From positions 3,292 through 31,527 of IMG/VR virus record IMGVR_UViG_3300030085_001082: a DNA stretch of 28,236 bases. The stretch is one strand, 5' to 3'. Both the position numbers and the translations under genes were made by a program. Below are positions 923 through 23,394 of the stretch, piece by piece. Each line of letters begins with the position of its first letter. Position 1 is the stretch's first letter. This stretch comes from a virus. The notes beneath the pieces are model-generated. The model was given only the letters and a program-made list of their open reading frames with translations. It was not told the origin of the DNA and made no database searches.

Positions 923-1843
923 TTACTTTCCTAATGTCATTAAAATATTTAATATCATAGCCATCACATTGATTTCTTTATCAACGACCATTGAGTCTTT
1001 ATATTGACCATCGGCTATATTCAAAATTGTGTGTCCAACTTTACCACTTGCATATGAGTCTACTTCATCATAAAGTGCTCTATACAATGGTGTAAAGTCT
1101 TTCACTTTAGAGTCTGCAATAATTTGTCTTATAGTATTGAACTTTGTTTTCATTTCACCACTATCTTGTAAAACTTTAATTACATCCTCGGTGTAGTTTG
1201 CCTGAATCGTAGATGTAGTATCTATTTTTAACTCACCTTTGACAACTTGTCTTTGTGCCGAGTTCAATACTCTACGAATATCAGGGTAACCACTATTGAC
1301 CAAAATTGCTAAGTCTTCTTTTTCAAACTTAACTGATTCCTCGTTTAATATATCAAACAATCTTTTAGCCACTTCCTTCTTTGAAGGTGGTGTTATTGCG
1401 AATGTCTGACAACGAGATTGAATTGGGTCAATAATTTTTTCTACATAGTTACAAGTTAAAATGAACCTTGTAGATTTACTAAAAGTTTCCATTAGATTAC
1501 GAAGAGCTGCTTGAGCATTTGGTGTCAAATAGTCTGCTTCATCTAATATAATAACTTTCCACTTTCTGAAACCCATTGATGATGCGAATCCACGAATCTT
1601 ATCACGGACTGCATCAACAGAGTTTTCATCAGAAGCGTTGATATACATCAAATCACAATCAATCTGATTGGTGATTATCTTTGCGAGTGTAGTCTTACCT
1701 GTTCCTGCAACTCCATAGAGTAACAAGTGTGGTACATCCTCATTCTCAATGTATATCTTTACTTTGTCTAAGATATGTTGATTACCAACATAACCATCTA
1801 ATGTATCGGGTCTATACTTTTCAACCCATAGTGAATTACTCAT
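923..1843 (-). CDS. 44: Clamp loader large subunit, AAA+ ATPase (T4 gp44-like)
   Basis: A 306-residue AAA+ ATPase of the RFC small-subunit/gp44 type, which opens the gp45 sliding clamp and loads it onto primer-template DNA. It begins with the hallmark WVEKYRP (residues 6-12). Walker A is GVAGTGKT (44-51), Walker B is VIILDEAD (97-104), and the SRC arginine-finger motif is at 143-145. The frame is open upstream to 1885, but the ATG at 1843 puts WVEKYRP at the usual distance and gives an ATGA overlap with the preceding stop, so I chose it. T4 gp44 is 319 residues. It is separated from gp45 by the DruA-like gene, unlike in T4. Confidence 0.96.
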   Translation of the reverse strand: MSNSLWVEKYRPDTLDGYVGNQHILDKVKIYIENEDVPHLLLYGVAGTGKTTLAKIITNQIDCDLMYINASDENSVDAVRDKIRGFASSMGFRKWKVIILDEADYLTPNAQAALRNLMETFSKSTRFILTCNYVEKIIDPIQSRCQTFAITPPSKKEVAKRLFDILNEESVKFEKEDLAILVNSGYPDIRRVLNSAQRQVVKGELKIDTTSTIQANYTEDVIKVLQDSGEMKTKFNTIRQIIADSKVKDFTPLYRALYDEVDSYASGKVGHTILNIADGQYKDSMVVDKEINVMAMILNILMTLGK

Positions 1844-3030
1844 CGACCTACTTCTTTTAAATATGTTTCTTTTGCTTTGTCCCAACTCATTCCAATAATA
1901 TCCATGTAATACAATGTATCTGGTTTCAATCTGTTTTCATCATGTAACTTAGTGTATCTTCTGATAGCTTTCTTTTTCCACCATCTGATTGTATAATCGT
2001 CACCTTCTTCAAACTTCTTCTTCATCTTAAGTTGACTTTCATCAATCTCATTTCTAAGAAATTCATTTCCGTTGTCATACATCATTGCGAAGTAAACACC
2101 TCTTTTGAATCCATGTTGATATTGTGTACTTTTGATTCCTAACTCTTTAAAAATCATAGACAATATTCTTTGCTTGATACCAGATACAGGTCCTTGAATA
2201 CCTTCTTTTTGAGTTGTAACCTTTTTATATTCTTCGGATTTGTTTTCTTTAATCCATTGATGCCAGATATCGTAAAATTCATTATCAGGTTTAGTAGAAA
2301 CTTTACCTGTTGATTCACCTAATGTTTTGAAGTGTGGGATTCCATTATACTGAGAATGAATTCCATAAAGAGAAGTTGTACCAACTGCGATAAGAGTTTG
2401 TCCATACTTTTCTTTCCACAAATCTCTGAATGTAGGTGAGGTTGTTAATGCTGATACAAGTTTACCACCTAAGAAATTATATCCTAAAGGTTGTGTTGCG
2501 ATGATAGATGTTCCAATCGTAGTATGATTTAACTTACCATCTTTAAACTTATTCTCTTTATCCCAACCAATGTACTTATCACGAACACCTAAAGATGTTA
2601 CATCAGAACCAAGAGATATTACACCAAGGACTTTACCACTTTTTCGGTCTTTAGCAAATGCTTTTATATTACGACCAGGATTAGCAGTAAATTCCATAGA
2701 TGAAATACACTTACGAATGTCAGTCCACTTCGCAGTGCCTGATGAATCTGTAATTAACTCAACATAAGGTTCTAATTCCTCAATTTCTTTGATTGTTAGT
2801 TCCTTATTGTAAATGTCAGTTGGAGTCCAAATCATATCAAAAGACTTTGCAAGACTTGGTTTTCTTGCCATAGACTTTGGTAAATCTGAATTCCATTCCT
2901 GCCACTTTTTGTAAAGAGTTTGTTCTTCGACAGGCATAGTAGACAAATACTCCATGTTGTCAATGAATCGTTTTCTCTCTACATCGTAGTCAAAAACAGG
3001 TTTCGCTGGTTCTGTATCCCAAAATTGCAT
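1840..3030 (-). CDS. DruA-like protein (DUF4338-like) in the clamp/clamp-loader operon
   Basis: A 396-residue protein lying between the sliding clamp and clamp loader genes, where T4 has none. Its start overlaps the gp45 stop by one base (TAATG) and its stop overlaps the gp44 start (ATGA), so it is translationally coupled to both. The middle carries a series of motifs I associate with DUF4338, the domain of DruA from Druantia anti-phage systems: LGVISLGSD (135-143), RDKYIGWD (150-157), GGKL (188-191), WKEKYG (205-210), TTSLYG (218-223) and SQYNGIP (226-232). The C-terminal 120 residues are rich in Lys, Arg and Trp and probably bind nucleic acid or protein. The biochemical function of DruA proteins is not something I can state, and a phage version could do something quite different. 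Confidence 0.78.
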   Translation of the reverse strand: MQFWDTEPAKPVFDYDVERKRFIDNMEYLSTMPVEEQTLYKKWQEWNSDLPKSMARKPSLAKSFDMIWTPTDIYNKELTIKEIEELEPYVELITDSSGTAKWTDIRKCISSMEFTANPGRNIKAFAKDRKSGKVLGVISLGSDVTSLGVRDKYIGWDKENKFKDGKLNHTTIGTSIIATQPLGYNFLGGKLVSALTTSPTFRDLWKEKYGQTLIAVGTTSLYGIHSQYNGIPHFKTLGESTGKVSTKPDNEFYDIWHQWIKENKSEEYKKVTTQKEGIQGPVSGIKQRILSMIFKELGIKSTQYQHGFKRGVYFAMMYDNGNEFLRNEIDESQLKMKKKFEEGDDYTIRWWKKKAIRRYTKLHDENRLKPDTLYYMDIIGMSWDKAKETYLKEVGR

Positions 3031-3725
3031 TACTTAATCTCTACTAAATAATAGTTAGACTTAAATCCATCATTCTCAAATGAGACATGAGCTAATCCAT
3101 TTGGTGAAATCTTCAATGAAGATGATTTTGCACCTTTGTTAGCATTAAGGATTTCTTTTAAGTATTTTGCTGAGAATGAAATTGGTTCTACATCACCATC
3201 ACATTCACACTCTACATTAATAGAAATTCTGTTAGAGTTAATCTTTGAGTAACCTAAGATTACTTCACCTTTGTCACCTTTACAACTGAATGTAAATGTA
3301 TCTGAATCAGATAATGCACCTTTTGATTTTACAAACTTGTTTACAAAATCATTGTCCATCTTGATTGTAGATGTAAACTCAGGTAATTGTTTTAAATCTG
3401 GCACAACAGGTATAACAGATAAATCAGCCAACATATAGTTTACTGAAGTTCCTTTATCTGAGAATACAAGTGATGCGTCACCTTCGTTTACATCAATGTC
3501 AGAATCTAATACAGTTAGTAATCCTTTTAATTGAGAGGTAGTGTAAACACCAAACTCACCACTTGGGAAGTCTTTGTTATCACTACTTACATTTCCTAAT
3601 AGGGTCTTATCATCAGAAATAAATTTGACAGATAATCCCTCTTCTGTTGAATCAATTTTAACTGATTCGACTTCACCACCCAAGTTGTAACGAGTAATGA
3701 AACCTTCAAACGAGCTTTTTTTCAT
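3030..3725 (-). CDS. 45: Sliding clamp (T4 gp45-like)
   Basis: A 231-residue acidic protein, close to the 228 residues of T4 gp45, a trimeric clamp that tethers gp43 to DNA and in T4 also activates late transcription. Support comes from length, beta-rich composition, the segments SFSAKYLKEIL and LKISPNGLAHVSFEN in the C-terminal half, and its position immediately before the clamp loader genes and after gp43. It starts at an ATG about 22 bases downstream of a -7 element. The leader is A-rich without a clear Shine-Dalgarno, which is common in Bacteroidota. It is the first gene of the unit gp45, DruA-like, gp44, zinc ribbon, gp62. Confidence 0.93.
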   Translation of the reverse strand: MKKSSFEGFITRYNLGGEVESVKIDSTEEGLSVKFISDDKTLLGNVSSDNKDFPSGEFGVYTTSQLKGLLTVLDSDIDVNEGDASLVFSDKGTSVNYMLADLSVIPVVPDLKQLPEFTSTIKMDNDFVNKFVKSKGALSDSDTFTFSCKGDKGEVILGYSKINSNRISINVECECDGDVEPISFSAKYLKEILNANKGAKSSSLKISPNGLAHVSFENDGFKSNYYLVEIK

Positions 3726-3747: not shown

Positions 3748-3779
3748 TTAATATACGAAATTTATTTTTAAAATCCAAA
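3748..3779 (-). promoter_or_regulatory. Bacteroidota-type promoter for gp45
   Basis: On the minus strand TTTG (3779-3776), 20 bases, then TATATTAA (3755-3748). It overlaps the last codons of gp43. The same TTTG-N20-TATATTAG arrangement precedes six other gene starts here. Confidence 0.75.
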
Positions 3780-6284
3780 AAATTCTGAAGCTTTATTTAG
3801 ATTTGGGTTTGGTTTCTCCCAATCCATAGCTTTATAGAAGTCATCAAGTTTATTTTCTAACTCCTTTTCCCAAATTTTATCGTAGTCAATATATTGTTCT
3901 ACAAGTTTTAAAATCTGAGGTGGGTCATTATGTCCTTTCAGACCCGTTGCCTCTAATCCAAGAGGATTCTTTTTCAAATATACCCACTTTATCTTGTCAC
4001 CATCTTTCATAGGTTCGTATTTATATGGTACTTTATAAAAAGCAAGTAATTGATTGTATGTTATTGCTGCCTTTACATGAGCAGGTGAACCTTTTTTAAA
4101 CTCACCCAATACTTGTGTTTTTGTTGTATATTTACTCATACCTTTGACTGCTGAGTTCTTTGCGATATCAATAAATGGTCTATCTTCCATTTCTTTTTTA
4201 TAGTCAAGAATCTTAGTATCAATTTCTTTTTTATCAACGGACCTTAGAATATCTAACAAAACAGTTTTCATAACTTCTTTGAAGTAAGTTGGGAATGAAC
4301 TTCTTTTAACATCCAATCCTTTTACATCTAACTTGTCACAATCAACTTCGTTATCATTGATAATCCATTGTGCGTATCTTTTCTTTGATACCCAAAATCC
4401 ACCCTTTGCAATTGTTTCTTGTTTGATATCAAATTTATGAGAATCAATATTAAACAATCGTTTTGCCATTGTATCATAAACCTTGTTGATATGAGTTTCT
4501 ACTTCTTTTGCTGCGGATAGAATCGCAGGAATCATTTCTTCATCCGAATCCTCATTGAGTTCAGGATTACGAGATTTTACTAATGGAGCGGCCTGATAAA
4601 AAACAGAATCAGTATCGGTATAAACATTGTAGTCATCTTCTTTTCCTATTACTTTTGAATAATATTGATTTGCAATCAACTCAGTTGTTTTAATTACAGT
4701 TTGACCTGTAATCGTAGTTGCCTCTGCGTTATCTACATCATAGAATCTGAATGATGGTAGTCCCAACACTCCATACAATGAGTTCAACATAATCTTTTGT
4801 ACCAATTGTCTTTTACCATAGAACTTGTATTGTTCGTCATTACCTTCTTTACCATACTTTTTCATCAAGTTTTTGTATTCAACTCTTTTGTCAAACCAAA
4901 CACTTAGTATCTCAGGTATAACTCCAACTTTATCAGTTCTATATAAAACACCATTTGCGGCAACAGAGTATTTGTTTTTCTCAATAAACTTTAGAAACTT
5001 TTCTTTAGGTAAAGGTGGAAACTCATTACCACCATCATCTATAATTGAATAAGTTTCAAGATTACCTTTCATATGTTGTTCAGCAGAATAACCTTTTAGT
5101 TTACCAATCTTGGTCTCAGGTGATATATTGATACTCATAATAATAGATGGATATAGAGAAGTTAAATCCAAATCGTAAACCCATTTGTAAAGACCAGGTT
5201 TAGGTTCTTTTACATACGCACCTGTAAATTTACCTTCACCATCAGAACCATCTTCATTTCTTGGTTTTCGTCTTGGTTTGTTGGGCGCTACCCTACCACT
5301 TCTTCTAAGGAATGTTAATATTGCTCCTTCTAACCATTTTGATGAGAATAAAAAATCTTCGTAGAACACATGACCTGTGTGACATATTGCTCTTGCCAAA
5401 TCAATGAACTGAAGTTTTTTATCCAAGTCCACTACTAATTCAACATCAACTAAGTTGTACTCAATAAACTTCTCTATATCATCCCTAAATAATTGGTCCA
5501 AGTTACCTTCATATTCAATCTTACCTCTACCCAACTCAATAGTTGCTACCGTGTCTAATCGATAGTTAGGTAATTCGGTAAAGTTGTAACACTTATAAAG
5601 TGCTAAATAATCCAAACAACTAACACCACCAATAATGTATCTACTTCTATATTTGTTATAGGATACTTTACCAATCGGTGACAACTGATTTGCGAATTGT
5701 TGACCAAACAATAGTTTGTATCTATTGTAAAGATAAGTAACATCAAAGTAGTCTATATTCCAACCTGTAACTATTGTTGGATTTATTTCTCTCCACTTTG
5801 TCATGAACGCTGATAATAGACCTTCTTCAGTATCAAATGATTCTACCTTAGCTCCTTTGATTGTTTTATCAATCTTTTCACCTTGATTGACAACATAAAC
5901 AAAATAATCATTTGTAATAGAATCGTGACCTGCGATTGAAGTGATTGCGTTACTTGCCGTTTCTATGTCAGGCAACCCACTATTCATTTCAACCTCGATA
6001 TCAAATGTCATGATTGTATGTCCTGTTGAAACTTCATCAGAGTCACCATACTCATCAATTAAGAAACGAGTCATTTCGTTTACATCTGATTCATATAATT
6101 GTAAATCATCGTCTGCTTTCCAAAAATTTAATTTCTTGAGTCTTTCACCATGAATAGATTGGTGTGCTCCGTTTCCATCCCTCACATAAGCATATCTACG
6201 ATACTTAGATGTAAAGTAACCTTTCTGGTCATCCCAACAATGGATGATAGACTTTTCTTTTTCGAAGAATACATTTTGATACAT
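3768..6284 (-). CDS. 43: Replicative DNA polymerase, family B (T4 gp43-like)
   Basis: An 838-residue family B polymerase with proofreading exonuclease; T4 gp43 is 898 residues. Exonuclease motifs are complete: Exo I D95/E97 (FDIE), Exo II N176 to D181 (GWNIDYFD), Exo III Y276/D280 (YNLVD). Polymerase motif A is DLTSLYPS (373-380), motif B has K497 and YG at 504-505, and motif C is YTDTDS (555-560). The extreme C-terminus, ASEFFGF, fits a clamp-binding tail like the one T4 gp43 uses to contact gp45. Its ATG lies only 4 bases beyond a -7 promoter element, so the transcript from that promoter would be almost leaderless; no Shine-Dalgarno is visible. It is complete and looks active. Confidence 0.98.
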   Translation of the reverse strand: MYQNVFFEKEKSIIHCWDDQKGYFTSKYRRYAYVRDGNGAHQSIHGERLKKLNFWKADDDLQLYESDVNEMTRFLIDEYGDSDEVSTGHTIMTFDIEVEMNSGLPDIETASNAITSIAGHDSITNDYFVYVVNQGEKIDKTIKGAKVESFDTEEGLLSAFMTKWREINPTIVTGWNIDYFDVTYLYNRYKLLFGQQFANQLSPIGKVSYNKYRSRYIIGGVSCLDYLALYKCYNFTELPNYRLDTVATIELGRGKIEYEGNLDQLFRDDIEKFIEYNLVDVELVVDLDKKLQFIDLARAICHTGHVFYEDFLFSSKWLEGAILTFLRRSGRVAPNKPRRKPRNEDGSDGEGKFTGAYVKEPKPGLYKWVYDLDLTSLYPSIIMSINISPETKIGKLKGYSAEQHMKGNLETYSIIDDGGNEFPPLPKEKFLKFIEKNKYSVAANGVLYRTDKVGVIPEILSVWFDKRVEYKNLMKKYGKEGNDEQYKFYGKRQLVQKIMLNSLYGVLGLPSFRFYDVDNAEATTITGQTVIKTTELIANQYYSKVIGKEDDYNVYTDTDSVFYQAAPLVKSRNPELNEDSDEEMIPAILSAAKEVETHINKVYDTMAKRLFNIDSHKFDIKQETIAKGGFWVSKKRYAQWIINDNEVDCDKLDVKGLDVKRSSFPTYFKEVMKTVLLDILRSVDKKEIDTKILDYKKEMEDRPFIDIAKNSAVKGMSKYTTKTQVLGEFKKGSPAHVKAAITYNQLLAFYKVPYKYEPMKDGDKIKWVYLKKNPLGLEATGLKGHNDPPQILKLVEQYIDYDKIWEKELENKLDDFYKAMDWEKPNPNLNKASEFFGF

Positions 6285-6288
6285 AAGT

Positions 6289-6320
6289 TAAATATACAAA
6301 AATTTTATGACATTACCAAA
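6289..6320 (-). promoter_or_regulatory. Bacteroidota-type promoter for gp43
   Basis: On the minus strand TTTG (6320-6317), 20 bases, TATATTTA (6296-6289). The -33 box lies in the last codons of the upstream Mom-like gene. The -7 box ends 4 bases before the gp43 ATG, implying a leader of roughly 0-2 bases. Confidence 0.72.
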
Positions 6321-7101
6321 AACTAACTGCGTTTTCTGGTGTATAAGTTTCATGTTTTTCTATTGGTGGTAAAAACTCCTCAGGGTCTTTTGGATATGGA
6401 CTTGTTTTGTGTTTTAACATTTTACTAAGTTTCCGTTTTTCCGATTTATTCTTACCTAAGATTTGAATGTACCTATGTTTAGGCGCCTCTTTCTTTCGCC
6501 AGAACTCTCTTACATTCTGCTTTCCTATTTCTTTTTTTAAATGTTCTACATTATGTGACCCCCACTTAGAAAATACAGTCCTTGAATGAATCCAATCGTA
6601 AGGACTATCACTAAGTGATACTGAATAGTTTGGCATTAGTTGTATATCACGACAATCTTGATATAACCAATTAGTTGCTTGATAAATGCCACCGAGGTGT
6701 AATTGTTCAGGGTCTGCGTAACTTAACAACATTTTAATTTTTGGTGCGTTTTCTTTCATCCATTTAAAAGACTGACCCATTGCGTATGATTCTATATTTG
6801 AACCATATCCATCATGGATGAACAATCTTGTCAACTCCAAACACTCATCTTTCTCTAAACCATCAATTACAGACTTAATAGCTGAACGACCTACGGGATA
6901 TCCATATACCAAGCAACCAATTAGTTTTTCACTACCAAAGAATCCATCATCACCATTGTAATATACACCGAGTGCATATCTACACATAGTCCACGCATGA
7001 GAGTAGTGATATTTTATAATCATCTGTTTTGCCACACTTTTATTGATTTCTCTAATAGAAACCTTTGATGTGTCTACATAATGTTTATTAGGTTCTTTCA
7101 A
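6313..7101 (-). CDS. Mom-like GNAT-fold protein, copy 2 (candidate DNA base modification)
   Basis: A 262-residue paralogue of the gene immediately upstream. Conserved blocks shared with it, in order, are KSVAK (21-25), HYS, YPVGR (GYPVGR here, GDPIGR in the other copy), ELTRLF, SYADP (SYSDP in the other), YQATNW and PKHRYIQIL. This order is what I associate with Mom-type proteins, GNAT-fold enzymes; phage Mu Mom converts adenine to a methylcarbamoyl-adenine that blocks restriction. The start is a TTG at 7101: an in-frame TAG lies three codons upstream, no ATG occurs before residue 27, and from the TTG the N-terminus aligns gaplessly with the other copy. It overlaps that copy by 14 bases. Substrate and product are unknown. 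Confidence 0.75.
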   Translation of the reverse strand: MKEPNKHYVDTSKVSIREINKSVAKQMIIKYHYSHAWTMCRYALGVYYNGDDGFFGSEKLIGCLVYGYPVGRSAIKSVIDGLEKDECLELTRLFIHDGYGSNIESYAMGQSFKWMKENAPKIKMLLSYADPEQLHLGGIYQATNWLYQDCRDIQLMPNYSVSLSDSPYDWIHSRTVFSKWGSHNVEHLKKEIGKQNVREFWRKKEAPKHRYIQILGKNKSEKRKLSKMLKHKTSPYPKDPEEFLPPIEKHETYTPENAVSFW

Positions 7102-7840
7102 TTGGTTCTAATTTTTTTATTTCTTCTTCAAATAACTCACTCTGTTTAGGATATGGTAATGAAGGGTATTTTAAACTCTTTAATATACGACTTTTTTTTG
7201 ACTTATCCAAAATATAAATGTATCTATGCTTTCTTGGTTCTTTTTTTATCCAAAAAGTTTTACCAATTACCTTTTGTATTTTAGTTGGATTATTAGTTCC
7301 ATAATATGGAAAAATTGTTCTACCATGTTGCCACTCACCATTTTCCTCAAACTTAAATAACCAACTATCATTTGGTCTAATTCTATTTCCTTGATATATC
7401 CAGTTTGTAGATTGATAAACAGTTCCCAGATGACCTGCTTTTGGGTCTGAGTATGATATTAATCCTTTAATATGTCTTGCGTGTTTTCTTAACCACTTAA
7501 ATGTTTGTCCAACAAACCAACTCTCAACATTACATCCATATCCATCGAATACGAATAATCTTGTGAGTTCTAACACTTCTTTTCTGTCTAATAACTCTGA
7601 TATTGATTGACCAGAGTGTCTTCCGATTGGGTCACCATATGTTGCAACACCGATTAACTTATCTGTTGATGAAAAGAAAGAGTGTGAATCATCCTCGACA
7701 TATAACCCCAAACAATAACTAACTTTAGTCCAAATACCACTATAATGGTTTTTTATGATAATGTCCTTTGCTACTGATTTTGAGATAGGTCTTACGGATA
7801 ACTTTGAAATATCTGTATACTCTTTCCCTTTAATTTTCAT
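7088..7840 (-). CDS. Mom-like GNAT-fold protein, copy 1 (candidate DNA base modification)
   Basis: A 250-residue protein with HYSGIW (32-37), LIGVATYGDPIGR (62-74), ELTRLF (91-96), SYSDP (129-133), GHLGTVYQSTNW (136-147) and KHRYIYIL (204-211). These are the landmarks of the Mom-like branch of GNAT acetyltransferase-fold proteins common in phages. Mu Mom modifies adenine in DNA; whether this protein acts on DNA, and with which donor, cannot be read here. It begins with an ATGA overlap on the small helix-turn-helix gene and is followed by a diverged second copy, so the three genes form one unit behind their own promoter. The 5-prime end is well supported by alignment with copy 2. Confidence 0.78.
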   Translation of the reverse strand: MKIKGKEYTDISKLSVRPISKSVAKDIIIKNHYSGIWTKVSYCLGLYVEDDSHSFFSSTDKLIGVATYGDPIGRHSGQSISELLDRKEVLELTRLFVFDGYGCNVESWFVGQTFKWLRKHARHIKGLISYSDPKAGHLGTVYQSTNWIYQGNRIRPNDSWLFKFEENGEWQHGRTIFPYYGTNNPTKIQKVIGKTFWIKKEPRKHRYIYILDKSKKSRILKSLKYPSLPYPKQSELFEEEIKKLEPIERT

Positions 7841-13909: not shown

Positions 13910-13976
13910 TAGATTTTAAATTATACTTTTTGTTATATGTCGGTGATAATATATATGATTAAAAATCTATATCACC
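13910..13976. repeat. Inverted repeats between gp41 and nrdB
   Basis: Two inverted repeats are interleaved here: TAGATTTT (13910-13917) with AAAATCTA (13962-13969), and GGTGATA (13942-13948) with TATCACC (13970-13976). The stems are AT-rich, and no T-run follows in the direction of transcription, so a classical terminator is unlikely. They could be an operator or RNA hairpin ahead of nrdB, or chance in AT-rich DNA. Confidence 0.35.
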
Positions 13977-15317
13977 TGACATTTCTTTATATTTTTGCGC
14001 TAATTCTTTTCTTACTAAACTCTCCCCTTGTTTCATCTGGTTAGTGGTTCTTTTACCATCAATGGAATCGTCATTATAAATGTGAATTTGCCCTGTCGAG
14101 AAGTTTGCTTTAGATGGGAATGTCATTCCATCAGGCCCAAACCTATTTTTTATTACATGCCATCTACCCGTACCTGCGAGTTTATCTTCTATTTTTCGAG
14201 ATAAAGATACAACAAAATCTGCGGTCATCATTTTAGAAAACGAACCTGCGATTTTTGTACCTGTAATGATGTCATCTTCTGCACCACTTCTATTGATTTG
14301 TGATGCCGTATAAACAGGTACCTCGTACTCACCTGCCATACCACGAAGGTCTTCAATGATTTCTTCTAACTCTTCGTGTCTTTTTTCTTTTGTTGGTCCT
14401 CTTAATAAGTCTGCATAATCGACAATAACTACATCAGGTCTTTTACCTTGTAGAATCATTTTGTCCATATGTGCTTTTAATGAAGTTACACTAGCGGTTT
14501 TAGTAGGATAATGTTTTACCACCAAGTCACCTGATACATTCTCAACCGACTTTTTTACATCTTCCATGTTGTATTTAAGATTACCAACTGCTACACCACT
14601 TAATACTGCATCGTATCGTTGACCAACATAACCTTCGTTTAGTTCTAATGTATAATGTGCTACTATTTTACCTTTTTTCATAGCATTGACACCAATATTA
14701 ACTAATGACCAAGATTTACCGATACCAGGTGGTGCAGCGAATAAAATTAATTCACCTTTTCCAAAACCACCTTGAGTAATTTCATCAATAACTTGCCAAC
14801 CAGTAGATACTACATTTCTTACAGTATCTTCGTATCTTTCAACAATCATAGATTTGTATTCGTGTCCAATATCAGAATCTTGACCTGCTTTCATTGCGGT
14901 ATCAATATTCTTTTTGATTTGGTCATACTTACCATTTTCTAATAATGGTACTGAATCCAAGATTGCGTTTTTGATAGATTGATTCTTACAGAAATCAAGA
15001 ACTTGTTCTTTTACAAACTCCAAATCATCACTTTCTAAGTGATTCCAAGCAAACTTTAGTGTATCTACTACTGATGTTTTTAATACATCTCGCTCTATGG
15101 TATTTATTTTAACTTTGAGAACATCCAAGGTTGGCATTTTCTCAAAATCATCAAAATACTTTAGGATTGTTTTTACCAACCACTCAGATGATTCAGAATC
15201 AAAATATTCTGGCTTCATAATATCATAAATCTGCCTTGTAAAAGACCTATCTGATAATATGGAAGATATTACTTTGTTCTGAAATGAGGTGCTGAATTTA
15301 CTTCCTAATTTTTCCAT
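13959..15317 (-). CDS. 41: Replicative DNA helicase, DnaB family (T4 gp41-like)
   Basis: A 452-residue hexameric 5'-3' helicase. A DnaB-type N-terminal helical domain (about 1-150) leads into a RecA-like motor with Walker A APPGIGKS (195-202), Walker B VVIVDYADLL (296-305) and the sensor region VYTASQINRSG (335-345). T4 gp41 is 475 residues. The acidic C-terminal tail fits contact with partner proteins. It starts at an ATG 6 bases beyond a -7 promoter element, giving a very short leader. No primase (gp61) gene was found in the window. Confidence 0.95.
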   Translation of the reverse strand: MEKLGSKFSTSFQNKVISSILSDRSFTRQIYDIMKPEYFDSESSEWLVKTILKYFDDFEKMPTLDVLKVKINTIERDVLKTSVVDTLKFAWNHLESDDLEFVKEQVLDFCKNQSIKNAILDSVPLLENGKYDQIKKNIDTAMKAGQDSDIGHEYKSMIVERYEDTVRNVVSTGWQVIDEITQGGFGKGELILFAAPPGIGKSWSLVNIGVNAMKKGKIVAHYTLELNEGYVGQRYDAVLSGVAVGNLKYNMEDVKKSVENVSGDLVVKHYPTKTASVTSLKAHMDKMILQGKRPDVVIVDYADLLRGPTKEKRHEELEEIIEDLRGMAGEYEVPVYTASQINRSGAEDDIITGTKIAGSFSKMMTADFVVSLSRKIEDKLAGTGRWHVIKNRFGPDGMTFPSKANFSTGQIHIYNDDSIDGKRTTNQMKQGESLVRKELAQKYKEMSGDIDF

Positions 15318-15357: not shown

Positions 15358-15903
15358 TTAGTCTAATAAAATTGGTGGGTGATAGATATATCCTGCTTTC
15401 CTAGCATTTATGTGTTTTTCCATAGGAAATTTAGAATTCTTACAATATAACCCATCTGCATTTAGTTTCCATTCATCTAAGTTCAATTTGTTTCCATCTT
15501 TAACAAAGTGATTAGAAACTTGATATGCTTTTATTTCTTCTTCAGGTTTCCCCGTCTTACAATACTCATGTATTGCCCATAACTTTTCATAAAATGTTAT
15601 ATCAACATAAAGATGTAAATCAAATGAAATTCTAAGTATGTCTTCCATTACTGATTTTATCTTTGTAGGATTATACTTACCTATTAGTAATAAGTCAATA
15701 TCCCAAGACATCCAATTTTCAAGAGTTCCACCTACTACATATAATTTAAAATCACTAAGGTCAGAACATTCGTTTTTTATTCTGCTTACTAATGTTTTAA
15801 ATAATGGATGGTTAGTACCACCAATTGAGTACCAATTCGTTTCTTTAAACTTGTAGTATTCAATTGTTCCTTCAAATAATTCAGTTGTGTAATGGTTATG
15901 CAT
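15358..15903 (-). CDS. Small nucleotidyltransferase-fold protein (pol beta superfamily)
   Basis: A 181-residue protein with the minimal DNA polymerase beta-type nucleotidyltransferase signature: GG at 58-59 (LYVVGGT), then DID at 68-70 (WDIDLLLIG), and a third candidate catalytic Asp at 101 (LYVDITFYE). The order and spacing match the family pattern hG[G/S] followed 9-13 residues later by DxD. Members transfer nucleotides to proteins, RNA or small molecules, and include MNT-type toxins/antitoxins and tRNA nucleotidyltransferases; the substrate here is unknown. It overlaps the RNase H gene by 8 bases and ends the gp32-uvsX-RNase H unit, so it is likely co-expressed with DNA repair/replication proteins. 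Confidence 0.75.
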   Translation of the reverse strand: MHNHYTTELFEGTIEYYKFKETNWYSIGGTNHPLFKTLVSRIKNECSDLSDFKLYVVGGTLENWMSWDIDLLLIGKYNPTKIKSVMEDILRISFDLHLYVDITFYEKLWAIHEYCKTGKPEEEIKAYQVSNHFVKDGNKLNLDEWKLNADGLYCKNSKFPMEKHINARKAGYIYHPPILLD

Positions 15904-16933
15904 TCTTCATGTAATTATGTAATGATGTAAATGAGTTTCTTAACCAAGAATCTACATTTGCAAATGCCGTATACAATTTATCATACATAAACATTTTTTT
16001 AAACTCTACCAAATCCAACTGAGGACGATGTGTATCCATTAACTCTCTAACATTTGACTTTATGGATGATGATATATCAGGGTCAGCTAATTGCATAAGA
16101 CCATAATTCATATTAATAGTATCTAAATTATCTTTGAGTTTTTTTGCCAACTTATCTTCACACTCTGAAGAACATTTCTCAATGAATGTGTCTAAAGAAA
16201 GGTCATTTTCAGTTAAAAACTTCATTTTAGATTCTATTGTTTTTATACCAACACCATTTACGCCTTTTATGTTGTCAGATTTATCACCCATAAGAACTCT
16301 GTAAAATATCAGATTTTGTGGAGTAACCCCATAATCCTCTATCACCTCTTTTTCGGTGTACATTTTCTTTTTAGTAGGTGTAAAAACTTTAATTCTTTGA
16401 TTTACTAATTGTAAAAAGTCCTTGTCAGATGATAAAATCGTAACTTCTTTTTTAAAGTAGTGATTTGCTAAGTATGCGATGATATCATCTGCTTCAACAT
16501 AATCTATATAAGTCATTGTGATAGGTAGTATCTGTAAGTATTCAATGAGTCTCTTGAATTGATTTCTCATTGATACTTGTTGGTCTTCTAAGTCTTCATA
16601 TCCTGCAAGTCTATTCAACTTAGTTAAACCTGTTCTACCTTCCTTATATCCTTTATATACGGACTTTCTTCGGTTAGAACCACCCTTTCCATCAAAAACT
16701 ATAACGACACGAGTTGGTTTTAATCTTCTAATCGTTGCAGCAGTGGACAGGAGAAAACCTGTCACACCACCACAATGTTCACCATCATCATTCAAAGCAG
16801 GAACTGCCCCAAATACTCTAATAAACTGATTAAGACCATCAATGATAAGAACTCTATCATCGAGTGATTCGTTTTTTACTTCGTTATGTTCTTTACTTAC
16901 TTCTTTGAGTAGTTCTTTATACCTGTTATTCAT
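15896..16933 (-). CDS. rnh: RNase H / 5'-3' exonuclease, FEN family (T4 Rnh-like)
   Basis: A 345-residue structure-specific 5' nuclease that in T4 removes RNA primers and flaps. Catalytic acidic residues are visible at D32 (LIIDGLN), D81 (VIVFDGKGG), EADD (148-151 region), SSDKDF (169-173) and GDKSDN (216-221), followed by the helix-hairpin segment GVNGVGIKT. T4 Rnh is 305 residues. I chose the ATG at 16933 rather than the TTG one codon upstream. It overlaps uvsX by 8 bases. A polar N-terminal extension of about 25 residues precedes the core. Confidence 0.94.
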   Translation of the reverse strand: MNNRYKELLKEVSKEHNEVKNESLDDRVLIIDGLNQFIRVFGAVPALNDDGEHCGGVTGFLLSTAATIRRLKPTRVVIVFDGKGGSNRRKSVYKGYKEGRTGLTKLNRLAGYEDLEDQQVSMRNQFKRLIEYLQILPITMTYIDYVEADDIIAYLANHYFKKEVTILSSDKDFLQLVNQRIKVFTPTKKKMYTEKEVIEDYGVTPQNLIFYRVLMGDKSDNIKGVNGVGIKTIESKMKFLTENDLSLDTFIEKCSSECEDKLAKKLKDNLDTINMNYGLMQLADPDISSSIKSNVRELMDTHRPQLDLVEFKKMFMYDKLYTAFANVDSWLRNSFTSLHNYMKNA

Positions 16934-18059
16934 CAAAATCTGTTACTTCAACATTATCGATATTTGCCTCTTCACTTGATTGTTTGTAAGCCATAATATA
17001 TGAATTACAAATCTCATTGTAAATAGACTCTTTTAATTCGGGTCTTTCTTCTAATAAGTCTTCAAAGTTCTTTGCTTGAAACTTTAACTCCTCACCTGTT
17101 TCTTTGTCGACATAAGTGTACCATGCACCACTTTGAGTTACCAACTTATATGTTTTCATCATTTGTAACCATGAACCATAATTGTCGATACCACTATCAA
17201 AGTAGATATCATAGTCAACTGAACGAAGAGGTGGCCCCATTCTATTCTTGATAACTTGAGCACGAGTTTTGATACCAACTACTTGGTCTACTCCACCAAT
17301 TTTAGATTTAAGTTGTCCCATTGATTTTAACCTAATTCTACAAGAAGAGTGGAATGCGATTGCTTTACCACCACTTGTAGTCCAAGGGTCACCAAATGAA
17401 ACACCTAATCTTGTTCTTAATTGATTTGTGAAAATTAAAGATATTCTTTCTCTACCTATAAGATTTGTAATCTTTCTCATAGCTTTAGAAATAATAATCG
17501 CTTTCTGAGTAGCATAACCTGCTTGGTCGTAGTCTGCAGATATCTCTACTTTGGTAGATGCACCTGCGACAGAATCCACTACAATAGTTACTAGCTTTTT
17601 CTTGTCGGATGACCTTACTGATTCTATAATTGAATCAATACCTTCAAAGATATCCTCAACAGTTTCAAGTGGAACATACAACATTTTCTGAATGTCAACT
17701 CCTATCGCCTCTAAAAACTCAGTATTACAAGCGTTCTCAGTATCTATATAAACACCAAGACCACCCTTTTTCTGAGTATCTGCGATTGCGTGAGCTGCCA
17801 ATAGTGATTTACCACTTCCTTCTAAACCTGTAATTTCTGTAATACGACCTACGGGTAATCCACCATTAGGTCTGTTTGAAATTGCCAAATCTAACATCGG
17901 TGAACCTGTCGAAACCCAACCATCAAGGTCAGTCGGCGTTTGTTCACCCCCATCCAAGAAGTAAGCCACCTTATGGGCGGACTTAAACTTCTTGTTTAGG
18001 TTATCAGCTAAGATGGAAGATAGTTCATCACGAACTGATTCTTTCTTCTTCTTTGCCAT
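16926..18059 (-). CDS. uvsX: RecA/UvsX-type recombinase
   Basis: A 377-residue strand-exchange ATPase. Walker A is GLEGSGKS (78-85), followed by the LGVYIDTENA strand. Walker B is at about 155-162 (TIVVDS), and the segment IFTNQLRTRLGVSFGDP leads into TTSGGKAIAFHSS, the L2/DNA-binding region. It resembles bacterial RecA in this last part as much as T4 UvsX, but its position directly after gp32 is that of a T4-like recombination gene. The Lys-rich N-terminus and acidic C-terminus fit the family. It starts 3 bases after the gp32 stop. Confidence 0.95.
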   Translation of the reverse strand: MAKKKKESVRDELSSILADNLNKKFKSAHKVAYFLDGGEQTPTDLDGWVSTGSPMLDLAISNRPNGGLPVGRITEITGLEGSGKSLLAAHAIADTQKKGGLGVYIDTENACNTEFLEAIGVDIQKMLYVPLETVEDIFEGIDSIIESVRSSDKKKLVTIVVDSVAGASTKVEISADYDQAGYATQKAIIISKAMRKITNLIGRERISLIFTNQLRTRLGVSFGDPWTTSGGKAIAFHSSCRIRLKSMGQLKSKIGGVDQVVGIKTRAQVIKNRMGPPLRSVDYDIYFDSGIDNYGSWLQMMKTYKLVTQSGAWYTYVDKETGEELKFQAKNFEDLLEERPELKESIYNEICNSYIMAYKQSSEEANIDNVEVTDFDE

Positions 18060-18062
18060 AGA

Positions 18063-18824
18063 TTATTCGTTAAATAAGTCGTCAAACGCTTCTTTTACAT
18101 TACTCGCTGGGGAAGTTGCAGTTGTAGTTTCTTTTACTTCAACTTTAGGTTCTTCTTTCTTATCAGAAACTTCACCTGTATCCAACCATTCTTTTAACAT
18201 TCCTTCCATTTCTTCATAAGAAACTTTTTTGAACATATCACCAAGAACGATTTGGTCTTTAGCGGTTTCTAATATGTTCTTGTCCTCTGAGATAGCTGAT
18301 GTATTTGGTTTTACTCTGATGTAAGTCTCAGGATAAGTTTTACCTAATTCTGCAGCAGTTTTAAATTCTACTGTTACATCTCTACCATTTACAGGGTCAG
18401 TTAAATCACCATAGTCAGGGTCAGCGAAGAATCCAAGAAGTTCTTGGTATACATTCTTACCGAATCCCCAAAACTTAACACCTTCAGACTCCTCACCTCT
18501 TACTAAGATAGGAACATAAGTTCTCATCTTTGGAGTAAGTTTTCTTGAAAGTTGATAGTCATTTCTATCACCTGTTGCTTTCAACTTTTCTGCAAACTCT
18601 AAGATAGGGTCTGCTTCACCAAAAGAACTCGGGGAGATAATGTTTTTACCACCAAATCCAAAATGGAAATAAAGTTCGATGAACGGGTTAGAGGGATTGT
18701 GAACATAAGGAAGAATCCTTACTTGTTGTTTGCCGGGTTGTGGTTTCCACAAGTTGTCGGTCTTTGTTACTTTTGTCTGAAGAGAGTTCAGACGATTTCT
18801 GATTGCGTTTAAATCAATTGCCAT
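18063..18824 (-). CDS. 32: Single-stranded DNA-binding protein (T4 gp32-like)
   Basis: A 253-residue OB-fold ssDNA-binding protein (T4 gp32: 301). The N-terminus has a basic patch like the gp32 cooperativity motif (RNRLNSLQTK, 9-18), then the KPQPGKQQVRILPY strand typical of the family, and the acidic C-terminal tail ends EAFDDLFNE for partner binding. It contains no cysteine at all: the His/Cys zinc site of T4 gp32 is missing, and the corresponding region reads HFGFGGKNIISPSSFGE. It is preceded by a promoter with a perfect palindrome and by an AU-rich leader, and heads the unit gp32, uvsX, RNase H, nucleotidyltransferase. Confidence 0.93.
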   Translation of the reverse strand: MAIDLNAIRNRLNSLQTKVTKTDNLWKPQPGKQQVRILPYVHNPSNPFIELYFHFGFGGKNIISPSSFGEADPILEFAEKLKATGDRNDYQLSRKLTPKMRTYVPILVRGEESEGVKFWGFGKNVYQELLGFFADPDYGDLTDPVNGRDVTVEFKTAAELGKTYPETYIRVKPNTSAISEDKNILETAKDQIVLGDMFKKVSYEEMEGMLKEWLDTGEVSDKKEEPKVEVKETTTATSPASNVKEAFDDLFNE

Positions 18825-19700: not shown

Positions 19701-20090
19701 TTAATTTACATTGACAATTCTAAATAAACTTGTCTTTAATATTTTGTATCCTTCACCATCGGTTAGAATCATAGAGTTTCTATAATCTTCCCAATTAATT
19801 TTGTATGTTTTATCTTCAACACCACCATTTAGGTCCACAATCAATCTGTTTAATGCGTTGATTGTGTAAATGGTGTTTGATTCTTTCTTACGATGTGCCA
19901 ATATAGTACTTCCTAAGAATTTTCTTTCATTGTTCGGTATGATATTATAACTAATCACCAGTTCTTGTGATGGTTTTAATTTTAAAATAAATATTTTTCT
20001 ACTATAAAGGATGAATGAGTCTTGAATATTTTGTAAAACTGATTCAAATTCGGCCTCATTAGTAAATGTACATAGTAATTGCGTTCTCAC
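19701..20090 (-). CDS. Conserved-looking phage protein of unknown function, GTG start
   Basis: A 129-residue protein beginning RTQLLCTFTN after a GTG start; the GTG has AAGGGAG about 5 bases upstream, and no ATG exists in this frame nearby. The core reads AHRKKESNTIYTINALNRLI, then a LNGGVEDKTYKINWEDYRNSMILT segment, which I recall from unassigned proteins of marine T4-like phages. No catalytic motif is visible. It lies between the 685-residue gene (10 bases upstream) and the 243-residue unknown gene. Confidence 0.75.
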   Translation of the reverse strand: MRTQLLCTFTNEAEFESVLQNIQDSFILYSRKIFILKLKPSQELVISYNIIPNNERKFLGSTILAHRKKESNTIYTINALNRLIVDLNGGVEDKTYKINWEDYRNSMILTDGEGYKILKTSLFRIVNVN

Positions 20091-20100
20091 CCATACTCCC

Positions 20101-22158
20101 TTACTTTATCTTCAAAGATTTTTTTACTTTTCCGAGTGGTATTTCACTAACGCCCTCAAAATTGTAACTATATCTTCCACTTGAATTTGTACCCATTCTA
20201 AATTGTGAGTATTTCAAGTCACCTGTTTTTTCAGATATCCCACTTAATCCATAACCTCTCATTGAGAAATAATTTTTAAGTTGACCTGTATATAAGTAAA
20301 ACACAACGACATCTGATAAATCTTTTGTTAGTTTTTCTTCTACATACTTCTGTGCACCTGGGTATTGCTCATATGCAGTACCACTTCCATCTTTCTTAAC
20401 TCCATACACTTTATATAGTGGTAATGTAGATTTACCATAAATCATTTCTTTCTCTAATTCAATCATTTTTGAATATAATGTTTTTGAATCAGATTCTAAA
20501 TCACCTAACATATTCTTTAAGACTATTGCTGATTGGAAGTTAGTCAATAACTTTGCCACATCATCTTGTTGTATTGGTGCTTTAATTTTTAGTTTTTTAT
20601 ACCCATCGTAATAGAACGCTGGGTTTTTTGCTGCAGCTTTTTTAAGTTCAAGAAGTTTATCGTTAGTATTCTTAGTTACAATATCTAAAAGTTTCTGATT
20701 CTTTGCTATCTCACCTAAAGAATCCCACATACTAACTTTCGCTTCACCTAAAAGTCCTTCTTTCAGATTACCTTTCATCCCTGCTCTTTGAAGTTGTTTT
20801 TCTAATGATGATACTTCTTTAGTAGGTGATTTTTGTAATGCTGAAGATATTTTCTTTCCAAAACCAGATAATAGTGTACCAACTTGAGATAGTTTTTCCA
20901 TAAACTTAGTTCCTACATTTTTTATGAAATCAATACCTCTTTTGAAGAAATCACTCAGACCTTCTGTAATTGATAAATTGTATACATCCTCTGTTGATAG
21001 TAATCCGTATTTATCTTTTAAGAATCCATATATTTTACCAAGTTGGGCCTCTTCTTTACCTTTTTTAAGAGAAACTTGTAAAAACTTTATGTTTGTACCT
21101 GTTATTTTACAAACACCCTTTGAATCGAACTCTACTGGCAATCCTTCACCTAATTTTGATATTAGTTCATTACCTGGCACACTTGATACAATACAATCTG
21201 CAGTATTATCTTTTACACCATCAACTAAGTCAGACCTTTCAGTAGCATTATAGTATCCTTTTATATTTTTGTGAATCAGATGTGCACCCTTAAATTTTAA
21301 ATCCTCTGTAAATTTAGTCATACCTGCCATTAATTGTGCAGTTAAGAAATAATCACCAAGTGGCATTGTATCTATCTTACTTAAAATATTATTAGGTTTT
21401 GCGTACTCACCACTCATACCTAATGCTTTTATAAATCTTTGTTTTACTGAGTTAATTATAGTTGGTAACTCGTCTTGTGTTTTTGCTGAGTTTAAATCTT
21501 TCAGTATACTAAATCCATTTACATATAACCCCATACAAGCTGCGGTCTCAAGTGTTTCTGTATCCCAATTAACATCATTTACGGATTTACCTTTTCTCAT
21601 TTTACCAAATAAAGATTTGAATGTATTATCTGATGCGGTTATTTTGTATACTTTGTTAGTGTCGTCACCTTTTACAAATACAGTTTTACCTGCGCTGATA
21701 TTTACCTCAACAAAATCATCAGTTTGTCCCATTTTTGTAAATGGACCTTTAGGGATTTTTTCACCCTTTGGTAATCCTTTGCCAAATAGTTCTGCAGTCT
21801 TAGTTAATGGTAAAAACTTATCACCTTCTGCATATTTAGAATCATATATTGATGCCTCAGATAGTAATTGACCTAATTTAGATATCGCCTCTTCTTTTTT
21901 CTTTTTGAGATTGTCCTTTTCAATTGCAGTCATCATTCCAAACTTATCTATGTCTTTTTCATCATCAGATTCGTCTTCGGATTCTCTTTGAAATTCTTGA
22001 ATTAGGATGTCAGCTGATTCTTCACCAACTTCATTTAATAAATGTGAATAAAAGGATTTTATGAAATCTTCGGTATAAATACCCTCAGCCATTTTGACAT
22101 CAATATCTTGCCAAACTTTCTTTAATAAGTTGTCTACTATCTGTTGGGATTTCTTCAT
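20101..22158 (-). CDS. Large unknown phage protein with a possible PD-(D/E)XK-like core
   Basis: A 685-residue protein I cannot assign. The N-terminus (1-100) is helical and charged, with an acidic run at 58-72. The central part has a helix TETLETAACMGLY (200-212), then TADCIVSS (319-326), then FLQVSLKKGKEEAQLGK (359-375). A Glu-bearing helix, a strand with Asp and a strand ending S-L-K is the order of a restriction-endonuclease-like core, with Ser in place of the usual Glu before Lys. A Gly/Lys-rich helical stretch follows (400-475, FFKRGIDFIKNVGTKFMEKL), and a mixed C-terminal domain. It could also be a virion protein. It begins 12 bases after the polymerase-like gene, without a clear Shine-Dalgarno. 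Confidence 0.72.
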   Translation of the reverse strand: MKKSQQIVDNLLKKVWQDIDVKMAEGIYTEDFIKSFYSHLLNEVGEESADILIQEFQRESEDESDDEKDIDKFGMMTAIEKDNLKKKKEEAISKLGQLLSEASIYDSKYAEGDKFLPLTKTAELFGKGLPKGEKIPKGPFTKMGQTDDFVEVNISAGKTVFVKGDDTNKVYKITASDNTFKSLFGKMRKGKSVNDVNWDTETLETAACMGLYVNGFSILKDLNSAKTQDELPTIINSVKQRFIKALGMSGEYAKPNNILSKIDTMPLGDYFLTAQLMAGMTKFTEDLKFKGAHLIHKNIKGYYNATERSDLVDGVKDNTADCIVSSVPGNELISKLGEGLPVEFDSKGVCKITGTNIKFLQVSLKKGKEEAQLGKIYGFLKDKYGLLSTEDVYNLSITEGLSDFFKRGIDFIKNVGTKFMEKLSQVGTLLSGFGKKISSALQKSPTKEVSSLEKQLQRAGMKGNLKEGLLGEAKVSMWDSLGEIAKNQKLLDIVTKNTNDKLLELKKAAAKNPAFYYDGYKKLKIKAPIQQDDVAKLLTNFQSAIVLKNMLGDLESDSKTLYSKMIELEKEMIYGKSTLPLYKVYGVKKDGSGTAYEQYPGAQKYVEEKLTKDLSDVVVFYLYTGQLKNYFSMRGYGLSGISEKTGDLKYSQFRMGTNSSGRYSYNFEGVSEIPLGKVKKSLKIK

Positions 22159-22170
22159 AACTATAAATAT

Positions 22171-23394
22171 CTAAATATTGGCCTTAACCATATTATCATA
22201 ATCTTTTCCGATTTCTAATTGTGTAGGGAATCCATCTTTTTCCATTACTCTTTTTACTTCCCTAATATAATTCTCTTCGTCTGCCGCAACATCAAATAGA
22301 ATCGAATCGTATGTATATAATATAGGTATTGACTTTTGATTCAAATCGATTTTGGACAATTTGTCTAATATAAGTATGTTTCTTTCAGTTTCAAGCGCTT
22401 GTAAAACATAATTAAATAACTTATTTTTATTGAGTGAGTCGTTTATTTCTATTTTCCGGCTCATAATTGGTGTATTTGTGAGTCGATTACGCAAGAAGTC
22501 CATCCACATTGAGTTTATATACTCAGATGTCTTTTGAAAGAACGGAATGTGATAATACTCGTCTTCTATACCACCATATAGTTGTCTAAATGTAATTGAC
22601 TTTGCTTCACTCAAATCTTTACCATACTGATTTGCCAACCATTCGTGTGCTTTGACATCTAATGGAATGTCTATGCCAATTAGTTTTGAAATAAGTCTAA
22701 TATGATATCCATCGAAATCTAATTGGCACAACTTGCCGTTTTCAAATCTTGATACAAATCTACTACGAACACCATCACCTTTTTTAAGTGCCGCATAGTT
22801 TGTTCCTTTAAATGTATTGGATGGTCTTGATGTTATTGTCAATGGATTGTAACGAGTATATTCATAACCCATATTAGTATACAACCCATTCTTTTCTACC
22901 CAACCTAAACTCTTTGGATAAAGTTGTGAGAATTTAGAAATTTTTGAGTCACCAAAAATTTTCTTCCAATCTTCGAATTGTTCATAGTGTTTCCATATAG
23001 GAATCAAATCATTTGCTTTAGGTGCCTGTCGTCTTCTGAAGATAGTGTAGATGGGTTTCTCTTCTACATCAAAGTTTTTAGCTTGCCAAAATAAAGACAT
23101 CTCTAAATCGTACATATTGGGTAAAAAGTCATAATGATATAAGAAGTCTTTCATACCTACTATGTAAACTTCCTTGAAGTTATGAAACTCTACTTTTTCG
23201 TCTATTTTAGTTGCGTCTATGTTGTGATAATTGATAAATAGGTCTAATGTACCATCTGATATGATTAATGCGGATATTCGTGTATGTATAGGGTGTTTCT
23301 CTAAACTTGTAAGTATAGGGTACACCAATATCCTTTCCCTTTGGAGTTGGGATATATGTTTCCTAAGTTGTTTGTTGCTATCTACAATTTTCAT
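22171..23394 (-). CDS. Short DNA polymerase A-family-like protein
   Basis: A 407-residue protein whose second half follows the family A polymerase order. ITSRPSNTFKGTNYAAL (187-203) stands where TGRLSS...NLQNIP usually is. LCQLDFDGYHIRL (222-234) matches motif A (DYSQIELR), with catalytic D226 and R233. EAKSITFRQLYGG (263-275) matches motif B, with K265, F269, Y273 and G274. IPILYTYDSILFDV (356-369) matches motif C, with D363 in a YDS replacing HDE. The first 110 residues have strands resembling a 3'-5' exonuclease fold without its DxE residues. There is no 5' nuclease domain. The steric-gate Glu is His231, and the motif B Arg is absent. It may be an active specialised polymerase or a degenerate one. 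It starts 6 bases beyond its own promoter. Confidence 0.75.
   Translation of the reverse strand: MKIVDSNKQLRKHISQLQRERILVYPILTSLEKHPIHTRISALIISDGTLDLFINYHNIDATKIDEKVEFHNFKEVYIVGMKDFLYHYDFLPNMYDLEMSLFWQAKNFDVEEKPIYTIFRRRQAPKANDLIPIWKHYEQFEDWKKIFGDSKISKFSQLYPKSLGWVEKNGLYTNMGYEYTRYNPLTITSRPSNTFKGTNYAALKKGDGVRSRFVSRFENGKLCQLDFDGYHIRLISKLIGIDIPLDVKAHEWLANQYGKDLSEAKSITFRQLYGGIEDEYYHIPFFQKTSEYINSMWMDFLRNRLTNTPIMSRKIEINDSLNKNKLFNYVLQALETERNILILDKLSKIDLNQKSIPILYTYDSILFDVAADEENYIREVKRVMEKDGFPTQLEIGKDYDNMVKANI

Follow-up and report, generated by a model that had tools for sequence, protein, structure and literature searches.

A second, reduced family A DNA polymerase of the divPolA1 kind and its companion protein beside gp43 in a T4-like phage

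Introduction

Why would a phage that carries a full T4 replisome retain a second, stripped-down Pol I? The question is raised by a stretch of viral DNA of 28,236 nucleotides (positions 3,292 to 31,527 of IMG/VR record IMGVR_UViG_3300030085_001082; hereafter the window), in which an earlier note, made from the sequence alone, had recognized a second, short family A polymerase. The contig is a 31.5-kb fragment, so statements about absent genes rest on its relatives.

The kind to which this polymerase belongs is not new, having been described in 2024 as divPolA1 (Yutin et al., 2024, Virol J 21:200; PMC11348598). In 14 phages (immuto and relatives, 155–190 kb), these authors found a second PolA with an intact palm, a truncated thumb and an inactive exonuclease that accompanies a regular PolA, PolB or PolC. 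Replication genes are conserved downstream of divPolA1, and genes around it vary less between phages than do those around the regular polymerase. We found neither the universal Glu-to-His change nor the companion protein reported below in the text of that paper, and the words “steric” and “partner” are absent from its main text.

Results

The Window Encodes a Family A Polymerase of the divPolA1 Kind

The open reading frame at positions 22171–23394 (minus strand) is intact, with an ATG start, 407 codons and no internal stop. With a dN/dS of 0.12–0.17 against four close relatives, the gene is under purifying selection. Its product comprises an apparently inactive 3′-5′ exonuclease-like domain (residues ~1–130), a truncated thumb region (~130–175), and palm and fingers (~175–407). 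We modeled the protein with AlphaFold2 (pLDDT 94.1, pTM 0.91) from a 48-row alignment of the window protein and its IMG/VR viral-contig homologues only, annotated phage records being excluded. The earlier note had made its reading depend on the predicted fold, and the model does have the palm-fingers fold; a Foldseek search of the PDB placed Klenow first (E 1.9e-16), with KlenTaq, Pol theta and Pol nu among the further top matches. A profile of the 48 members aligned to E. coli Pol I by hhalign with a probability of 96.9 (E 2e-10), and the window protein matched phrog_2573 (“DNA polymerase,” E 2e-5). In the Pfam search that the earlier note had proposed, the window protein had no match to DNA_pol_A (PF00476) above the cut-off, although three other family members did (best 4.6e-11). 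The features of the PF00476 family, the fold and motifs A, B and C in order, are present, and we read the miss as a limit of sensitivity because the structure and profile evidence agree. The window protein is thus a real family A polymerase homologue, far beyond chance.

The 48-member profile had no significant hhalign match to T7 gp5 or to the regular PolA of immuto; the relation is therefore clearest to bacterial Pol I. A T7 RNA-polymerase-like identity was set aside, as the alignment to T7 RNAP was not significant (E 0.14) and the top structural matches listed were DNA polymerases throughout. A match to PF15114 (UPF0640; E 0.0017, below the cut-off) was attributed to chance.

Among annotated phages, tblastn detected homologues in Microcystis phage Mel-JY01, in an uncultured phage of 484 kb and in the Flavobacterium immuto phages, where the annotation reads “DNA polymerase family A.” A profile search of IMG/VR yielded at least 586 confirmed relatives. 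In a phylogenetic tree with 15 divPolA1 rows and several long-branched outgroups, the window protein and immuto divPolA1 belong to a single clade supported at 99/99, from which regular phage PolAs and divPolA2 are separate. Like the immuto protein (QQO91919), it is a short, divergent PolA that accompanies a regular polymerase, keeps the palm residues, has a seemingly inactive exonuclease and a truncated thumb, and is encoded upstream of SSB, RecA, exonuclease and DnaB genes. Thus, the window polymerase belongs to the already known divPolA1 kind. However, the two proteins are only 29% identical overall and differ in length (407 aa in the window, 441 aa in immuto), and the regular polymerase is a PolB in the window’s genome and a PolA in immuto.

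Ordinary phage PolAs, such as T7 gp5, Roseobacter CRP-3 and Herelleviridae PolA, share the family A palm and fingers, but they are full-length (700–1030 aa), retain the steric-gate Glu and are separate from the window protein in the tree. The divPolA2 proteins of barbaviruses (Vibrio phage AUR84708) are likewise exonuclease-free, PolA-like and encoded beside a regular polymerase. They differ in keeping the gate Glu, in lacking the motif B Lys and the Tyr-Gly pattern, in an unrelated N-terminal domain, in their variable gene context and in branching outside divPolA1; the window protein does not group with AUR84708 and has the motif B Lys.

An Intact Palm With an Invariant His at the Sugar Gate

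The alignment to E. coli Pol I places motif A (D226-F-D-G-Y-H231; 22702–22719, minus strand) on D705 to E710, motif B (K265, F269 and Y273-G274; 22573–22602, minus strand) on K758, F762, Y766 and G767, and motif C (Y362-D363; 22306–22311, minus strand) on H881-D882, with S364 at E883. The same map pairs R190 with R668, R210 with R682, L261 with R754, N328 with N845 and Q332 with Q849. Both catalytic Asp residues, D226 of motif A and D363 of motif C, which the earlier note had numbered correctly, are invariant across the 48 divPolA1 members, as are the motif B residues that it had listed (K265, F269, Y273 and G274) together with R190, R210, N328, Q332 and Y362. On these sequence grounds, divPolA1 is predicted to be catalytically competent.

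The reported replacement of the steric-gate Glu by His is real and general: the position of H231 is His in 48/48 members and in the named ones, whereas Glu is retained in each of the eight ordinary PolAs and in the single divPolA2 included in the alignment. More weight than is due had been placed on a motif C of YDS instead of HDE. As HDS is also present in some ordinary replicative phage PolAs, only the Tyr-for-His change is specific to the family; the position of E883 holds Ser in 40 members and Ala in the other 8. The motif B Arg is missing from the window protein (L261), as had been claimed, but it survives in 2/48 members.

Other parts have been lost. The hhalign alignment jumps from Pol I residue 548 to 652 across query residues 174–175, skipping 549–651; divPolA1 thus lacks a stretch of about 100 residues to which the thumb belongs. 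The claim of an exonuclease domain without its catalytic acids is supported where the sequences can be aligned: an ungapped manual match at motif I (VFAFDTET/ILVYPILT), mapped by eye, places Pro26 at the position of D355 and Leu28 at that of E357, and the profile of the isolated domain gave no alignment to Pol I. The remaining exonuclease catalytic sites are replaced according to the published divPolA1 structure comparison (PMC11348598). Overall, the window protein resembles Klenow in fold, motif order and the equivalents of D705, D882, K758, F762, Y766, R668, R682, N845 and Q849, and differs from it in the absent motif I acids and thumb, the change of E710 to His and of HDE to YDS, the missing R754 and a 5′ nuclease encoded by a separate gene.

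divPolA1 Lies Within a T4-Like Replication Module

The presence of a gp43 beside the second polymerase was confirmed, as the window encodes a family B replicative polymerase of this type (838 aa; 3768–6284; phrog_262, E 6e-192). This gene and all others with coordinates in this section lie on the minus strand. The same stretch encodes a gp45-like sliding clamp (3030–3725; phrog_223, E 6e-10), a gp44-like clamp loader (923–1885; phrog_168, E 1e-82) and a gp62-like clamp loader small subunit (209–655; phrog_225, E 4e-21). Closer to divPolA1 are genes for a gp32-like single-strand DNA-binding protein (18063–18824; PF08804, E 5e-13; phrog_1192), a UvsX/RecA-like recombinase (16926–18059; PF00154, E 1.5e-55; phrog_97), a 5′-3′ exonuclease (FEN) of the kind that bacterial Pol I carries as a fused domain (15896–16936; PF02739, E 8.5e-33; PF01367) and a DnaB/gp41-like replicative helicase (13959–15317; phrog_19, PF03796).

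In the direction of transcription, the order is a gp25-like baseplate gene, several unknowns, divPolA1, orf685, orf129, orf243, gp32-like SSB, UvsX, 5′-3′ exonuclease, a 181-aa unknown and DnaB, followed by ribonucleotide reductase, modification-type genes, PolB, clamp, a DruA-like gene and clamp loader. The same-strand succession divPolA1–orf129–gp32–UvsX–FEN–DnaB recurs in immuto, Mel-JY01 and many IMG/VR loci. Among 100 related loci, many of them incomplete, tblastn found gp32 in 75, UvsX in 68, FEN in 63 and DnaB in 50. This neighborhood could reflect plain vertical inheritance of one lineage’s replication module. The gene between divPolA1 and orf129 (orf685; 20101–22158), which has no assigned function, occurs in 22 of the 100 loci. 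The 181-aa protein (15358–15903), whose gene separates those of the 5′ nuclease and DnaB, had no Pfam or PHROGs match and occurs in only one.

Two further features of the window were observed. A DruA-like protein (1840–3030; PF14236, E 1e-18; phrog_19197) is encoded between the clamp and clamp-loader genes, a T4-like replisome operon being an odd position for a Druantia-type protein. Directly downstream of PolB are two tandem Mom-like DNA modification genes (6313–7840; phrog_1384, E 1.9e-46 and 4.7e-54; PF25680 for the first), near a 2OG-Fe(II) oxygenase-like gene, a UDP-galactopyranose mutase (PF03275) and a glycosyltransferase. This grouping may be a cluster for the modification of DNA or of the surface.

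The Main Polymerase Varies and a Separate Primase Is Present

The main polymerase is a PolB in 11 of the 13 divPolA1 records tested and a PolA in immuto. One 176-kb divPolA1 contig (IMGVR_UViG_3300027782_003601) matched none of the tested PolB or PolA families; its main polymerase may be a PolC or may be missing from the contig. In the 484-kb phage (LR756508.1, 259363–267278), the PolB match extends over two open frames, of 1022 and 625 aa, with several kb between them, which suggests a gene that is split or interrupted by an intron or intein.

A first search for the DnaG zinc ribbon gave no match above the cut-off. However, a DnaG-type primase (phrog_47) was found in all seven divPolA1 records of at least 159 kb, and the annotation of the immuto genome includes a DnaG primase; shorter records had no primase match, as fragments may show, and the window’s own contig is too short. 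Because near-complete divPolA1 phages thus carry a separate DnaG-type primase, the earlier suggestion of a primer-making enzyme is disfavored, as is a replacement of the primase by divPolA1.

A Companion Protein Is Strictly Linked to divPolA1

Of the neighbors of divPolA1, the most constant is an uncharacterized protein of 129 aa (orf129; 19701–20090, minus strand). Every divPolA1 locus that extends 7.5 kb or more downstream encodes it (51/51), always on the same strand and at a distance of −24 to 7095 bases. In the reciprocal search, divPolA1 was found upstream in 70 of 80 orf129 loci and in 70/70 with enough flank, the sequence upstream being shorter than 5 kb in each of the ten others. Because some contigs occur in both searches, the tests are independent only in part. 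Among 50,697 phage records, the six that contain orf129 are the same six that contain a close divPolA1, and in genome bins the two occurred together in three of four matches, the fourth showing a partial divPolA1 only. The companionship of orf129 and divPolA1 is therefore obligate in both search directions.

The AlphaFold2 model of orf129 is confident (pLDDT 92.4) but had no significant match in the PDB, and its resemblance to the Rep and ACT (ferredoxin-like) folds was too weak to be significant; its single significant match in BFVD was a phage protein without a name. Searches of Pfam and PHROGs gave no match worth naming. The protein carries the signature HRKK..NT.YT.NALN and is conserved, strictly linked to divPolA1 and of no known family. 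No divPolA1–orf129 fusion was found. The linkage could stem from shared descent of a single replication module, but phages that differ from one another in main polymerase family have not lost the pair. orf129 may be a working partner of divPolA1 that contacts it physically.

Discussion

The reading we favor, tentatively and with a probability of roughly 0.45, is that divPolA1 is a reduced, Klenow-type accessory polymerase of low processivity that T4-like (immuto-like) phages keep beside the gp43 replicase. Bulk replication would be carried out by gp43 with its clamp and clamp loader, and divPolA1 would make short DNA stretches at gaps, at the junctions of Okazaki fragments or in D-loops. In gap filling, Okazaki-fragment maturation or recombination, it would act together with gp32, UvsX and the Pol I-type 5′ nuclease. 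It may represent the polymerase half of a split Pol I, the 5′-nuclease half being the separate neighboring FEN gene. For orf129, we envisage a subunit that might stand in for the lost thumb or might recruit divPolA1 to DNA coated with gp32 and UvsX. Beyond homology, we infer these functional steps throughout. T4 itself relies on gp43 and its RNase H for lagging-strand maturation; on logic alone, an accessory divPolA1 is therefore not required. In addition, a plain gap-filling role leaves the invariant His at the sugar gate unexplained, which counts against this reading.

That His is the starting point for a different proposal, in which divPolA1 has relaxed sugar selectivity and uses rNTPs or extends RNA primers, handing off to gp43 in the manner of Pol alpha. 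Klenow without Glu710 discriminates less against rNTPs, and the contrast between His throughout divPolA1 and Glu in the eight ordinary PolAs and the divPolA2 makes such an activity conceivable, although the Phe partner is kept: a bulky His could still gate the 2′-OH together with F269, and the dedicated DnaG-type primase of the near-complete records means that the primase is not replaced. We consider this proposal possible but unlikely. An extension to which we also give a minor share of probability joins divPolA1 and orf129 into an obligate two-subunit polymerase, in which orf129 would replace the thumb or load the enzyme and the His gate would give it an unusual substrate range, allowing it to accept rNTPs or the ends of RNA primers during lagging-strand or recombination synthesis. 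A translesion or repair polymerase like Pol theta or Pol nu, acting in recombination-dependent repair, would fit the apparent absence of proofreading acids, the truncated thumb, the nearby gp32 and UvsX genes and the presence of both enzymes among the top structural matches; it seems doubtful, as the structural match is to family A generally with Klenow first, and the operon is as rich in replication as in repair genes.

The remaining readings are at the two extremes. If divPolA1 were the main replicase and gp43 served elsewhere, the greater conservation of its neighborhood (Yutin et al., 2024) and its constancy while the regular polymerase family varies would be accommodated. This is improbable because divPolA1 lacks a thumb and, apparently, proofreading, and gp43 with the clamp and clamp loader of the window makes up a complete T4-type holoenzyme. 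At the other extreme, the short length, lost thumb and seemingly dead exonuclease domain could mark a catalytically dead relic with a structural or regulatory role, but the catalytic and nucleotide-contact residues are invariant in members down to 31% identity, and we regard this as very improbable.

At least several hundred viral contigs encode divPolA1, for which we found no tested function. The His at the steric gate and the co-inherited orf129 provide two direct handles, on sugar selectivity and on complex formation, and both bear on the question of why a phage equipped with a T4 replisome keeps such a polymerase. If divPolA1 and orf129 do form a two-subunit enzyme, this would be a new way to compensate for a missing polymerase thumb.
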